A DNA stretch of 39,914 nt from Mycobacteriales bacterium (GTDB taxonomy: Bacteria; Actinomycetota; Actinomycetes; JAFAQI01): assembly GCA_035504215.1 (NCBI GenBank), contig DATJSI010000057.1, positions 1 through 39,914 of the forward strand, written 5' to 3'. Position numbers and translations under genes: made by a program. The notes under the pieces were generated by a model, which was not told where the DNA came from, made no database searches, and was given only the letters and a program-made list of their open reading frames with translations. This document shows positions 8,786 through 21,203 of the stretch, in pieces; positions within the stretch are counted from its first letter, which is position 1; every line of letters starts with the position of its first letter.

Positions 8786-8805
8786 CGAGGCGACCTCCAA
8801 CCAAT

Positions 8806-8899
8806 GGGACCCCTCGCACACCCGCCAGAGCCCGCTTACCCTTGCTGCCTTCCGGCCCTGGGGGGGTTGGGCGGGGTAACGCCGCACGAGGGGTCGGCG
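8806..8899 (-). ncRNA. ffs: Signal recognition particle RNA, small bacterial type
   Basis: The minus strand carries the invariant SRP RNA apex GGCCGGAAGGCAGCAAGGGT, flanked by long complementary arms. The ends pair as GACCCCTCG with CGAGGGGTC. Length is about 90-95 nt. The RNA binds Ffh for co-translational membrane targeting. Placement between dnaX and tRNA-Ser is the usual actinobacterial arrangement. Exact ends are estimated from the closing helix. Confidence 0.93.
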
Positions 8900-9003: not shown

Positions 9004-9092
9004 GGAGGATTCGCCTAGTTGGCCTATGGCGCACGCTTGGAAAGCGTGTTGGGGGCAACCCCTCGCGAGTTCGAATCTCGCATCCTCCGCCA
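9004..9092 (+). tRNA. tRNA-Ser, anticodon GGA
   Basis: The 89-nt sequence folds as a class II tRNA with a long variable arm. The acceptor strand GGAGGAT pairs with ATCCTCC, followed by G and an encoded CCA. The anticodon loop is CTTGGAAAG with GGA at 9039-9041, and the T arm contains GTTCGAATC. It reads UCC and UCU codons. Confidence 0.97.
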
Positions 9093-10644: not shown

Positions 10645-10828
10645 ACCGTCACGGCGCGCTTAGTCCCGCCGGCCGTGACGAGCGGTTACCGACGGCGGGA
10701 GCGGAGGACCCACCGCGGTCGGTGCCGTTTACATCACCGGACGCAGGGGTGAAGTCGACCAAGTAGAGGTCGACCGGGCACCTTCCAGCCCGAACCCGAC
10801 AGCTGACTTCGCAGGCGCCCGGAAGGGA
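10645..10828 (+). ncRNA. c-di-AMP riboswitch (ydaO-yuaA class)
   Basis: The leader of the Rpf-like gene contains the ydaO-class conserved blocks: GGGAGCGGAGGACCCACCGC, GGGGTGAAGTCG, CCGGGCACCTTCC, and GCCCGAACCCGACAGCT followed by GACTTCGCAGGCG. CCTTCC pairs with GGAAGG just before the start codon, closing the 3' side and overlapping the ribosome binding site. An outer stem, CGTCACGGC with GCCGTGACG (10647-10655 and 10672-10680), is part of the same structure. Actinobacterial riboswitches of this class lie before cell-wall hydrolase genes and lower expression when c-di-AMP is high. Limits are approximate. Confidence 0.92.
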
Positions 10829-10836
10829 ACTGTTCC

Positions 10837-15898: not shown

Positions 15899-15988
15899 TG
15901 GCGGTGGAGGTGGGATTTGAACCCACGGAGGAGTTGCCCCCTCACACGCTTTCGAGGCGTGCTCCTTCGACCGCTCGGACACTCCACC
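15899..15988 (-). tRNA. tRNA-Ser, anticodon CGA
   Basis: This 90-nt class II tRNA on the minus strand has acceptor GGTGGAG pairing with CTCCACC, then G and an encoded CCA. The anticodon loop is CCTCGAAAG with the anticodon at 15952-15954. A long variable arm and a GGTTCAAATC T arm are present. It reads UCG codons. Confidence 0.97.
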
Positions 15989-17852: not shown

Positions 17853-19496
17853 CTACTGGACGAGCGCCTCGTCGGCGCGACGCACCCAGGAGGCGAACCG
17901 CTCGCCGTCCGCGCGGTCGGCGAGGTAGTTGCGCAGGACCCGCTCCACGTAGTCGGGGAGATCGTCCGCGGTCACCTTCAGCCCCCGCAGCTTGCGGCCG
18001 AAGCCGGCATCCATGCCGATCGCACCGCCCAGGTGCACCTGGAAGCCCTCGCGGTCGTCGACGATCATGCCCTTCAGTCCGATGTCCGCGACCTGGAACC
18101 GCGCGCAGGAGTTCGGGCAGCCGTTCACATTGATGGTCACCGGAGTGTCGAAGTCCGGGAGCCGGCGGTCCAGCTCGTCATACAGGTCGACCGCCCGGCG
18201 CTTGGTCTCGACGATCGCGAGCTTGCAGAACTCCAGGCCGGTGCACGCCATCATCCCCCGGCGAAACGCCGACGGCCGGACCGCAAGATCGCGCGCCTCG
18301 AGCGCCGCCACCAGCTCGTCGACCTGGTCGTCGGCGACATCGAGGATCACCATCTTCTGCTCGACCGTTGCGGCCAGCCGGCCGCTGCCGTGCCGGTCCG
18401 CCAGGTCAGCGACCGCGGTCAGCTCGGTGCCGCTCGACCGGCCGGTGCGGAACGCGAATCCCACATAGTTGCGTCCGTCCTTCTGCCGGCGTACGCCGAC
18501 ATGGTCGCGATCGCCGGAGAGCTCCTTCGGTGCCGGGCCATCCTCGAGCGAGCGGCCGAGATAGTCCTTGCTCTCGAGCATTGCCCGGAACCTCTCCGCG
18601 CCCCAGTCGTCGACGAGGAACTTCAGCCGGGCCCGGTTGCGGGACCGGCGGTAGCCGTAGTCGCGGAAGATCTGCGTGACGCCGATCCACGCCGTGAGTG
18701 TCTCGCCGGGCGGGATGAAGACGCCAAGCCGCTGCGCGAGCTTCGGGTTGGTCGACAACCCGCCGCCGACCCAGAGGTCGTAGCCGACCCGACCATCGTC
18801 GTGGCGGACGCCGACGAAGGACACGCAGTTGATCTCGTGCGCGGTGCACTGCACCGGGCAGCCGCTGATCGCCGTCTTGTACTTGCGCGGCAGGTTGGAG
18901 AACTCCTTGTTTCCCAACGCGAAGTCGTTGATCTCGACGAGTGCGTCGCTCGCGTCGAGCACCTCGTCGGCATCGACGCCCGCGAGCGGGCAGCCGAGGA
19001 TGTTGCGTGGTGTGTCACCGCAGGCCTCGCCGGTGCTGAGCCCGACCTGTTCGAGCCGCCGCCAGATCTCCGGGACGTCCTCGATGCGGATGTAGTGCAG
19101 CTGCACGTTCTGCCGGTCCGTGACGTCGGCGAAGTCGCGGCCGAACTCGGTGGCGATTCCCGCCACCACCCGCAGCTGGTCACTGGTGAGCGCGCCGCCG
19201 GGAATCCGGATCCGGAGCATGAAGAACTCGTCGTCGAGCTCCTCGGGCTCGAGGATCGCGGTCTTGCCGCCCTCGATGCCCGGCCGGCGTTGGGTGTAGA
19301 GGCCCCACCAGCGCATGCGGCCGCGCAGATCGCTCGGGTCGATCGATGCGAAGCCCGCCTTGGAGTAGACGTTCTCGATCCGGGACCGGACGTTGAGGCC
19401 GTCATCATCCTTTTTCATCCGCTCCTGCGGCGTGAGCGGCTCCAGGTGGCCAAGCGCCCACTGGCCCTGGCCGGCGCTTCGACGAGATGGTGGCAT
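17853..19496 (-). CDS. sir: Ferredoxin-dependent assimilatory sulfite reductase (NirA/SirA type)
   Basis: The 547-aa enzyme carries siroheme and a [4Fe-4S] cluster and reduces sulfite to sulfide with six electrons from ferredoxin. Cluster ligands are Cys418 and Cys424 (ACTGLEFCK) and Cys460 and Cys464 (NGCPNSCARF). Tyr67 in WWGLYTQRR and Cys159 in TGEACGD correspond to the cross-linked Tyr-Cys pair of the mycobacterial enzyme, which favours sulfite over nitrite. The start at ATG 19496 gives QWALGHLEPL early on, as in mycobacterial homologues. It is divergent from cysH, with a palindromic operator candidate between them. Confidence 0.95.
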   Translation of the reverse strand: MPPSRRSAGQGQWALGHLEPLTPQERMKKDDDGLNVRSRIENVYSKAGFASIDPSDLRGRMRWWGLYTQRRPGIEGGKTAILEPEELDDEFFMLRIRIPGGALTSDQLRVVAGIATEFGRDFADVTDRQNVQLHYIRIEDVPEIWRRLEQVGLSTGEACGDTPRNILGCPLAGVDADEVLDASDALVEINDFALGNKEFSNLPRKYKTAISGCPVQCTAHEINCVSFVGVRHDDGRVGYDLWVGGGLSTNPKLAQRLGVFIPPGETLTAWIGVTQIFRDYGYRRSRNRARLKFLVDDWGAERFRAMLESKDYLGRSLEDGPAPKELSGDRDHVGVRRQKDGRNYVGFAFRTGRSSGTELTAVADLADRHGSGRLAATVEQKMVILDVADDQVDELVAALEARDLAVRPSAFRRGMMACTGLEFCKLAIVETKRRAVDLYDELDRRLPDFDTPVTINVNGCPNSCARFQVADIGLKGMIVDDREGFQVHLGGAIGMDAGFGRKLRGLKVTADDLPDYVERVLRNYLADRADGERFASWVRRADEALVQ

Positions 19497-19524: not shown

Positions 19525-19540
19525 GAGACGCCGGTGTCTC
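19525..19540. promoter_or_regulatory. McbR-like palindrome GAGAC-N6-GTCTC
   Basis: GAGACGCCGGTGTCTC is a 16-bp palindrome with one mismatched pair. It has the spacing of the corynebacterial McbR site (TAGAC-N6-GTCTA), which controls sulfur genes. It lies between the sulfite reductase start and the cysH leader, where a shared repressor would be expected. No regulator gene is in the window. Confidence 0.45.
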
Positions 19541-19587: not shown

Positions 19588-19618
19588 TTGTCGCAGGTCC
19601 CCCGTCGTGTGGCAGACT
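19588..19618 (+). promoter_or_regulatory. Probable promoter of the leader peptide-cysH operon
   Basis: TTGTCG at 19588-19593 and CAGACT at 19613-19618 can be read as -35 and -10 boxes with a 19-nt spacer. The leader peptide ATG follows the -10 box after 6 nt, so the transcript would be leaderless, as known for mycobacterial cysteine leader ORFs. Confidence 0.4.
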
Positions 19619-19624
19619 ACCCGC

Positions 19625-19705
19625 ATGTCCTCGCACCTGCTCTTGGTGGCGCGACTGCACATCGACCTGCAGCGCATCCAGAGCTCCGTGTGTTGCGGCC
19701 GCTGA
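19625..19705 (+). CDS. Cys-Cys leader peptide (cysteine-responsive attenuator)
   Basis: The 26-codon ORF reads MSSHLLLVARLHIDL then QRIQSSVCCGR. The ARLHIDLxRIxSxxC pattern is that of the actinobacterial leader peptides found before sulfur-assimilation genes. Two tandem Cys codons near the end would let ribosome stalling at low cysteine raise cysH expression, as described for leaderless polycysteine ORFs in mycobacteria. It ends 38 nt before cysH. No ribosome binding site is present. Confidence 0.8.
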   Translation: MSSHLLLVARLHIDLQRIQSSVCCGR

Positions 19706-19743
19706 CCACTCGCGCCCGCATCCCATCGTCATGAGGACATCCC

Positions 19744-20514
19744 GTGATCAACGCCACTGCCACGGCAACGGTGTCGCGCGTCGCGCCGTCGTTGTCGTTC
19801 TTGCACGACGAGGCCACGGTGCTGCAGGACTTGTACGACGGTTCTGACGGCCTGGCCCACCTCGCGGCCCACGCGGGAGCGGCGCTGGAAGGCGCCACTC
19901 CGCAGGAGGTGCTGCGCTGGGCGGTCGACCGCTTCGGCCAGCGCCTGGTCGTGACCTCATCCATGGCCGACGGCGTTCTCGCCCACATGGCCGCCGGAAT
20001 CCGTCCAGGCATCCGCGTGCTGTTCGTGGACACCGGCTACCACTTCGCCGAGACGATCGGTACGGCGGACGCGCTCGCCTCGACCCTTCAGATCGACCTG
20101 GTGAGCGTGCGGCCGCACCTGACGGTCGCCGACCAGGACGCAGCGTTCGGCCAGGATCTGTTCGCACGCGACCCGGACCTGTGCTGCGCGATGCGCAAGG
20201 TCGCCCCGCTCGCGAAGGCCCTGGCGCCGTACGTCGCCTGGGCGTCCGGCATCCGTCGCGACGAGACGACCACCCGCTCGCAGGTCGGAGTTGTCGAGTG
20301 GGATGAGCGGCACGAGATGGTGAAGGTCAACCCGCTCGCGACCTGGACCCACGACGACGTGCAGCGCTACATCGTCGACAACGACGTCCTGGTCAATCCG
20401 CTGATGTCCGAGGGCTACGGCTCGATCGGCTGCGCGCCGTGCACGAACCGCGGCGAAGGCCGGACCGGCCGCTGGCTGGGCCTTCCGAAAGTGGAGTGTG
20501 GACTGCACGGATGA
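19744..20514 (+). CDS. cysH: Adenylyl-sulfate (APS) reductase
   Basis: The 256-aa enzyme reduces APS to sulfite with thioredoxin. It is of the iron-sulfur type: [4Fe-4S] ligands Cys147-Cys148 (DLCCAMRKVAPL) and Cys230, Cys233 (GCAPCT), and the catalytic C-terminal Cys252 in KVECGLH. Presence of the cluster motif points to APS rather than PAPS as substrate. The start is GTG 19744 behind GAGGAC. The stop overlaps the next start by 4 nt. Control is likely by the upstream leader peptide and possibly by the palindrome at 19525. Confidence 0.95.
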   Translation: MINATATATVSRVAPSLSFLHDEATVLQDLYDGSDGLAHLAAHAGAALEGATPQEVLRWAVDRFGQRLVVTSSMADGVLAHMAAGIRPGIRVLFVDTGYHFAETIGTADALASTLQIDLVSVRPHLTVADQDAAFGQDLFARDPDLCCAMRKVAPLAKALAPYVAWASGIRRDETTTRSQVGVVEWDERHEMVKVNPLATWTHDDVQRYIVDNDVLVNPLMSEGYGSIGCAPCTNRGEGRTGRWLGLPKVECGLHG

Positions 20515-21203
20515 CGCGCGCTGCGGCGCCGCTGGTGCTCGCAGCACACGGCAGTGCCAATCCCCACTACGCGACGGTCATCACCACACTGGCATCGACC
20601 GTCGCTGCCGCGCGCCCCGATGTCGACGTGCGGATCGGCTACCTCGACCATGGGCGGCCTCGGCTCGAAGACGTAGCGGCCGCGGGCAGTGTCGTCGTGC
20701 CGACGCTTCTGACCAACGGTTTCCACGTGCACATCGACATCCCCGCCCGCGCGGCTGAGCTGACCACGGTCACAACCGCAATCGGGCCCGACCCGAGGCT
20801 CGCGCTTGTGCTCCTCGATCGCTTACGGGAAGCCGGATGGAGAGGTGATCGCCCCGTGGTGGTCGCGGGCGCCGGCTCGGCCGACGAGCAGGCACTCGAC
20901 GACGTACGACGCACCGCGCGCGGCCTCGCCGAGCTGACCGGTGTGCGGGCTCGTGCCGCCTTCGCTGGATCCGGGGCACCACGGCTTGAAGCGAGTGATG
21001 ACGATGCCGTCGTTCCGTATGTCATCGGCCCGGGACGCTATGCCACCCTGATCGCCGGCTGCGGCGCGCCGATCGTCGCTGCCCCCCTCGGCGCGCATCC
21101 GTTGCTGGCCGAGATCATCATCGACCGCTACGACTCCGTGATCGACGAAGGCTTTGCGCCACGCTCTCCCCACGCCCGCGTGCTCGCAGTCCGACATAGG
21201 TGA
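20511..21203 (+). CDS. Sirohydrochlorin chelatase (SirB/CbiX-like)
   Basis: The 230-aa protein begins VLAAHGSANP, with His13 as the likely metal-binding residue, and has a second site in LTNGFHVHIDIP. A weaker second half (VVVAGAGSADEQAL, then APLGAHPLLAEII) repeats the fold, as in two-domain CbiX/SirB proteins. It inserts Fe (or Co) into sirohydrochlorin. Here it would supply siroheme for the divergent sulfite reductase. The start at ATG 20511 overlaps the cysH stop (ATGA), so the two are translationally coupled. Confidence 0.85.
   Translation: MTRAAAPLVLAAHGSANPHYATVITTLASTVAAARPDVDVRIGYLDHGRPRLEDVAAAGSVVVPTLLTNGFHVHIDIPARAAELTTVTTAIGPDPRLALVLLDRLREAGWRGDRPVVVAGAGSADEQALDDVRRTARGLAELTGVRARAAFAGSGAPRLEASDDDAVVPYVIGPGRYATLIAGCGAPIVAAPLGAHPLLAEIIIDRYDSVIDEGFAPRSPHARVLAVRHR

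Follow-up and report, generated by a model that had tools for sequence, protein, structure and literature searches.

In the polycysteine leaders of the Ms4527A type, the ribosome-binding site of the next gene is reportedly hidden by RNA pairing. These leaderless ORFs (Canestrari et al. 2020; NCBIfam NF042936) consist of a short reading frame with a core peptide and start with GTG or ATG just after a CAnAnT -10-like box. For the mycobacterial case, the excerpted text of a review states that downstream translation is regulated by cysteine-dependent attenuation (PMC9031893), and the available part of Shell et al. 2015 (PMC4633059) describes a Cys-rich leaderless small ORF before cysA2, a gene of cysteine metabolism. 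The uORFC-8-2 motif before cysS of Rhodobacterales comprises an intrinsic terminator and a leader whose tandem Cys codons lie within a stem, and UGC dominates among its Cys codons, with some UGU (excerpt of PMC8632094). In the LEU element of actinobacterial leuA, the base stem of the leader RNA involves the Shine-Dalgarno box, with which the leucine codons pair (Seliverstov et al. 2005, PMC1262725, in excerpt).

The locus described here lies in a stretch of 39,914 nucleotides (the window) from an uncultured actinobacterium of the Mycobacteriales (GenBank GCA_035504215.1, contig DATJSI010000057.1); its features are collected in Table 1. Its leader shares the short ORF, the core peptide and the position of the start codon with the Ms4527A type, but it carries Cys-Cys in place of C-S-C-x-C, reaches 21.9 of the 45 bits needed in the NF042936 profile, precedes cysH and has its Shine-Dalgarno partner at the leader 5' end. 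Compared to the excerpted descriptions of the other systems, the peptide differs from that of the cysA2 leader (PMC4633059); unlike uORFC-8-2 (PMC8632094), the window has no terminator between leader and gene, and its putative sensor is UGU; and it is the leader start, instead of leucine codons as in the LEU element (PMC1262725), that is predicted to pair with the Shine-Dalgarno box. Five leaders of family f5, found by our pattern in 5 of the 20 loci L123-L142, are preceded by GGCAnAAT; we take these genomes as mycobacteria because their rows lead the NF042936 match list.

Table 1. Features of the cysH leader locus in the window
Feature	Coordinates	Strand	Basis
Divergent nitrite/sulfite reductase, sirA-like	17853..19496	-	PF01077, PF03460
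Inverted repeat GAGACGCCGGTGTCTC upstream of sirA	19525..19540	.	sequence reading; clade comparison
-35-like TTGTCG, spacer 19	19588..19593	+	sequence reading; weak
-10-like CAGACT, context TGTGGCAGACT	19613..19618	+	same-place box in all eleven sequences
Possible -10 TAGTCT for divergent sulfite reductase, overlaps plus-strand box	19614..19619	-	TANTCT in clade A; inference
Leader ORF, 26 codons, predicted leaderless	19625..19705	+	ORF reading, family match, relatives
P0 5' strand AUGUCCUC, candidate anti-Shine-Dalgarno	19625..19632	+	folds, complementarity, covariation
P1 hairpin inside leader, codons 9-18	19649..19677	+	folds; also coding
Putative sensor Cys codon UGU, +11 from His	19691..19693	+	aligned leader peptides
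Second Cys codon UGC; tandem shared with G002 alone	19694..19696	+	eleven-sequence comparison
P2 hairpin, starts at Cys codons, stop codon in loop	19694..19720	+	folds, covariation
P0 3' strand GAGGACAU = cysH Shine-Dalgarno region	19733..19740	+	window fold, complementarity
cysH, PAPS/APS reductase	19744..20514	+	NF002537 E 1.6e-70, PF01507
CbiX-type chelatase, ATGA overlap with cysH	20511..21203	+	PF01903 on ORF 20439-21203; start chosen by eye

The leader encodes the peptide MSSHLLLVARLHIDLQRIQSSVCCGR, followed by a stop. It runs from an ATG (19625-19627) over 26 sense codons with an SSVCCGR end to a TGA (19703-19705), 38 bases before the GTG of cysH at 19744, and the -10-like CAGACT lies six bases ahead of the ATG. 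These coordinates agree with an earlier note on this DNA, made from the sequence alone, which had described the ORF, its end, its distance to cysH and a start 6 nt after a -10-like box. The promoter scan found no consensus promoter at the -35-like TTGTCG region. The leader matches the full length of the 19-position NCBIfam profile NF042934 (cis_reg_atten) with an E value of 2.7e-6 and 26.8 bits, 0.2 below the curated cut-off of 27; the Ms4527A profile NF042936 gives E 9.5e-5, with a score below its cut-off. A cmscan at gathering thresholds found no known RNA family at the leader. The likeness to polycysteine attenuators claimed in the earlier note stands as far as family membership (NF042934, just below cut-off), homology and anatomy are concerned, while the run of Cys codons is not the conserved feature. 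The profile matches support the view that the window leader is a member of the known actinobacterial Cys leader family, and the conserved -10-like box 6-7 bases before the start supports its prediction as leaderless. Because it is homologous to the mycobacterial system, it would sense cysteine, and cysteine control of the cysH leader is very likely. An ATG in the chelatase frame (20511) shares the bases ATGA with the cysH stop and the two genes are therefore probably coupled, which supports their treatment as one unit, as proposed before.

We compared the locus with its relatives, which are likewise from uncultured organisms. The order search comprised 13 genomes including the window's own, and cysH was found in 12 of them. 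A homologous leader ORF is present at the same place in all ten family relatives whose contig reaches upstream of cysH; these ten (G001-G010) and the window make up the set of eleven sequences used below. The -10-like box is CAGACT, CAGAAT or CACACT, always at the same place, and is separated from the start codon by 6 bases in 10 of the 11 sequences (7 in G002). The gap between leader and cysH varies from 38 to 56 bases. Over a 15-codon core of the leader, pS is 0.32 and pN 0.07 (pN/pS 0.22), and the leader peptide is therefore under selection. The codons CTG CAG CGC are invariant across all eleven leaders, which may reflect hairpin P1. Of the eleven sequences, the window and G002 alone carry tandem Cys codons; in the window, the first of the two (UGU) occupies the conserved position and the second (UGC) is additional. 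A second Cys that stands apart is present in G010 and G005, and seven of the ten relatives have a single one. The distance of the Cys codon from the leader start is 22-23 codons in 10 of 11 sequences and 31 in G010. Class-wide, NF042936 finds a match at E <=0.001 in 141 of 296 genomes. Among named genomes, a leader-like peptide, recognized by its motif, lies upstream in 64 of 80 stretches, these being the best 80 of 586 cysH-like stretches; it is usually found about 2 kb from cysH, before a long ORF about as large as sirA.

The leader peptides of the whole class share a fixed core, L-x-x-R-x-H-V-D-L-x-R-x-x-S/T-x-x-C. The Cys follows the His by exactly 11 residues in 93 of 94 distinct leader peptides, and does so in the window, too. 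The leader search itself required the core residues D, L and R, but not the R at -2 (94/94) or the L at -5 (93/94). From the core His onward, 50 of the 94 leaders contain a single Cys. The codon of the +11 Cys is TGT in all 80 distinct DNA stretches with Cys, and in 91 of 91 in a recount without L164-L166, although these sequences are related, with Streptomyces weighing heavily, and do not count as independent events. Elsewhere in the leaders, Cys codons are mixed or TGC, and in the cysH genes of these loci TGC outnumbers TGT by 48 to 1 in the family and 388 to 10 in the named loci; the window cysH contains four TGC and one TGT. A pattern allowing both codons matched in 186 of 393 class genomes, representing 65 of 137 genera, with zero matches for the backwards control, and all of the matches listed carry TGT. 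A TGC-only pattern was found in 3 of the 393 genomes. Because all three of these look like real leaders, the UGU rule, as read from the sequences, is strong but not absolute. With a shorter pattern, 396 genomes drawn from the phylum yielded 41 matches: 40 with TGT, all inside the class and including that of the window, and a single TGC match outside the class that looks like chance. The base after the +11 codon is C in 72, T in 19 and A in 3 of 94 stretches, the three TGC leaders included, and never G. The synonymous rate at the other core codons is 0.32-1.05, and a change from TGT to TGC would be one transition.

The stretches of all 41 tRNA matches in the window genome (96% complete) were analysed with ARAGORN, which identified one tRNA-Cys gene with the anticodon GCA. 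This anticodon reads UGU by G-U wobble. RNA pairing alone appears to be a poor explanation of the fixed codon. Across the eleven sequences of the window family, the third base (U3) has a mean pairing of 0.90, is paired in the majority of folds, usually with A, and its replacement by C costs an average of 2.65 kcal, so that pairing could explain UGU there. But in 67 other leaders the mean U3 pairing is 0.63, with 15 mostly unpaired, and the same change costs 0.19 kcal; moreover, where pairing is all that counts, a C-G pair would also serve. The conserved peptide, which sits at a fixed distance from the codon, suggests that the nascent chain may take part. The ORF might also be translated and merely couple or feed ribosomes to cysH, with cysteine playing no role. 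The single Cys codon of the seven relatives would fit this view, but we consider it highly improbable in the light of the +11 Cys in all but one of the leaders and of its codon, which is uniformly UGU once the three TGC loci are set apart. Furthermore, the next gene belongs to sulfur assimilation in the Pfam-checked loci (sirA in L015, L018, L022 and L077, cbiX-cysH in L077, APS kinase in L022), and the mycobacterial homologues are reported, in the part of the source available, to be cysteine-responsive.

The first eight bases of the leader, AUGUCCUC, are complementary to the cysH Shine-Dalgarno sequence GAGGACAU, and these two strands are paired (P0) in the minimum-energy fold of the window. 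When some 100 leader positions are compared as 8-base partners of the Shine-Dalgarno sequence, base 1 ranks first in 10 of the 11 sequences, including the window. RNAalifold, applied to all eleven with no structure given, also pairs leader bases 3-8 with the cysH Shine-Dalgarno sequence and predicts P1. In folds of single sequences, the Shine-Dalgarno sequence pairs with leader bases 1-12 at a probability of at least 0.8 in 7 of 11; P0 is weak in G008, G010, G009 and G006. In G010 it is absent in the 8-base register, and by our own reading it may be present in a shifted one with G-U pairs. Dealing the Shine-Dalgarno sites among the eleven sequences gave a P of 0.055, which is not significant because most letters are shared. 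The stability of the window RNA is ordinary (z -1.16; 24 of 200 shuffles as good), and P2 folds in all eleven sequences with z values from -1.4 (window) to -5.1.

Covariation was evaluated on an alignment of the eleven sequences that had been fitted to the predicted structure. Two-sided changes were seen in 8 cells, compared with 2.0 in shuffles (none of 500 reached this number), and in 5 pairs, compared with 1.9 (6 of 500). These counts support P0, which holds two of the five pairs, and P2, which holds three; P1 shows no double change over the eleven sequences. In G009, changes on both sides keep the P0 pairing (GUGGCUUU with GAGGCCAC). A measure of further pair types was no higher than in shuffles (326 of 500), and among the five closest sequences taken alone only a single pair shows a double change (358 of 500 shuffles). 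Another alignment (A5), with 14 double-change pairs against 4.9 in shuffles, was set aside since it contained rows of doubtful homology.

The complementarity together with the hairpin at the Cys codon suggests translational attenuation. We consider it likely that cysH and the chelatase gene that overlaps it are controlled at the level of translation by a leaderless Cys leader peptide. The transcript would begin at the leader AUG. If Cys-tRNA is plentiful, ribosomes would pass the UGU and leave at the UGA inside P2; the RNA would then fold with P1 and P2 inside, and AUGUCCUC would pair with GAGGACAU, closing both start sites. If Cys-tRNA is short, the ribosome would wait at codon 23 (UGU) and open P1 and P2. 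One stalled ribosome alone would not cover the leader 5' end, but following ribosomes could queue back to it, 22 codons being about two ribosome lengths, and this queue would block P0, so that cysH is translated. The start site, the stalling, the queueing and the induction by low cysteine are all inferred, the queueing to the start from the position of the Cys codon 22-23 codons into the leader in 10 of 11 sequences.

A ribosome on the leader could instead decide on an intrinsic or Rho-dependent stop of transcription before or early in cysH. The terminator scan detected no terminator-like site between leader and cysH (19705-19744), and only 38 bases of untranslated RNA precede cysH, which is short for Rho. 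The scan did find two terminator-like sites in 351 bases against 0.3 in shuffles, one of them, with 7 pairs, just inside cysH (19768-19789), but this is followed by an interrupted U tract (CGTTGTCGTT) without a run. Rho has been suggested for mycobacterial leaders in the excerpted text of Seliverstov 2005 (PMC1262725). With a complementary partner of the Shine-Dalgarno sequence present, transcription attenuation appears rather unlikely to us.

Pairing of the leader 5' end as a general rule was rejected, since P0 was found in 2 of 66 leaders scored outside the family (66 of 70 rows, without L043 minus, L052 and L054, where no Shine-Dalgarno sequence was found, and L085, whose gene start is unclear; among the rows scored, L043 plus duplicates the G010 leader). 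This result and the permutation P of 0.055 would fit the usual mould, in which a local anti-Shine-Dalgarno, situated in the spacer or close to the Cys codon, is freed when a ribosome sits on that codon. Pairing near the leader 3' end is predicted for the Shine-Dalgarno sequences of L048 and L101. The complementarity of the 5' end would then arise incidentally, from Ser codons (UCC UCG) that happen to match a GAGGA site. For the window family we regard this as unlikely, given that base 1 is almost always the best partner and that the changes on both sides in G009 keep the pairing. Control of cysH and chelatase translation through P0 remains our preferred reading.

As the earlier note had claimed, the divergent sulfite reductase has no such leader. 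This holds in the window and, by motif scan of the minus strand, in G001, G002, G004 and G008; the window contains no minus-strand ORF of at least 20 codons ending between 19497 and 19616. A second leader facing the opposite way is found in G003, G005, G007, G009 and G010 (the comparison excludes G006, whose contig ends too early), and the gene behind it is a nitrite/sulfite reductase by Pfam in the two loci tested (L015 and L018). Because these five genomes have a sulfite reductase leader, its lack in clade A is, to judge from the sequences, a lineage-specific loss or absence. In the genomes with two leaders, the palindrome AGTGTGnCACACT, a -10 box, lies 6 bases from both divergent starts and is conserved in 5 of 5 loci (L015, L016, L017, L018 and L042). 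It is likely a bidirectional promoter driving two divergent leaderless Cys leaders; such promoters are known (Warman et al. 2026, in excerpt). In all five clade A genomes (window, G001, G002, G004 and G008) the minus strand carries a TANTCT that overlaps the plus-strand box. In the window, a shared promoter of TAGTCT and the overlapping CAGACT could still link both operons, and the statement that the sulfite reductase must be set in another way went too far.

In all five clade A genomes, the inverted repeat upstream of sirA retains the form GAGAC-N6-GTCTC. As an operator of a regulon it was rejected, the site at 19525-19540 being the only exact one in the genome; a single-site operator or an RNA hairpin are candidates. 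A Frankiaceae MAG of a different family, G032 (L024 2978-3321 / L077 1855-2198), has a sirA / cbiX-cysH divergence with a Cys leader on either side. In L022, a Cys leader (2262-2364) lies downstream of cysH and precedes a gene for adenylylsulfate kinase (PF01583).

NF042934 has one better match in the window genome, with 38.2 bits, before a rhodanese-like (cysA2-type) gene (G000:C112:7023-7076, L001 1501-1554). Bases 5-12 of this leader (UCAUCUCC) are complementary to GGAGAUGA of its gene, and the 5'-end pairing is the top pairing in two of five rhodanese-gene leaders of the family (of ten loci, five yielded a leader and L159 did not, and in the remaining four the pattern did not find the gene start). 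The position of the L001 leader resembles that of the one described before mycobacterial cysA2 in the available part of Shell 2015 (PMC4633059). Elsewhere, the window contains a c-di-AMP riboswitch (10647-10832; RF00379, 60.6 bits), a small SRP RNA and two tRNA-Ser genes (GGA, CGA; 8802-8898 minus, 9004-9092 plus and 15899-15988 minus).

A broader reading, which we hold to be less likely than not, may be put forward: the class would sense cysteine by one UGU that stands in fixed register with the conserved peptide ahead of it and is read through wobble by the single tRNA-Cys (GCA), with the nascent peptide in the tunnel slowing the ribosome, and the window family would have wired this sensor to a lock of start codon and Shine-Dalgarno sequence. 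In the open-licence literature, a scope to which Canestrari 2020 does not belong, the texts seen in part (PMC8632094, PMC4633059, PMC9386245, PMC1183508) yielded no prior report of the UGU rule or of the 5'-end pairing. A start codon that acts as anti-Shine-Dalgarno would be a compact and testable layout, and relatives with and without the sulfite reductase sensor offer a natural comparison. If the reading of one UGU is true, one codon would be enough and no run of Cys codons would be needed. The UGU rule is the most interesting point: the putative sensing codon is the Cys codon that the cysH genes themselves seldom use.
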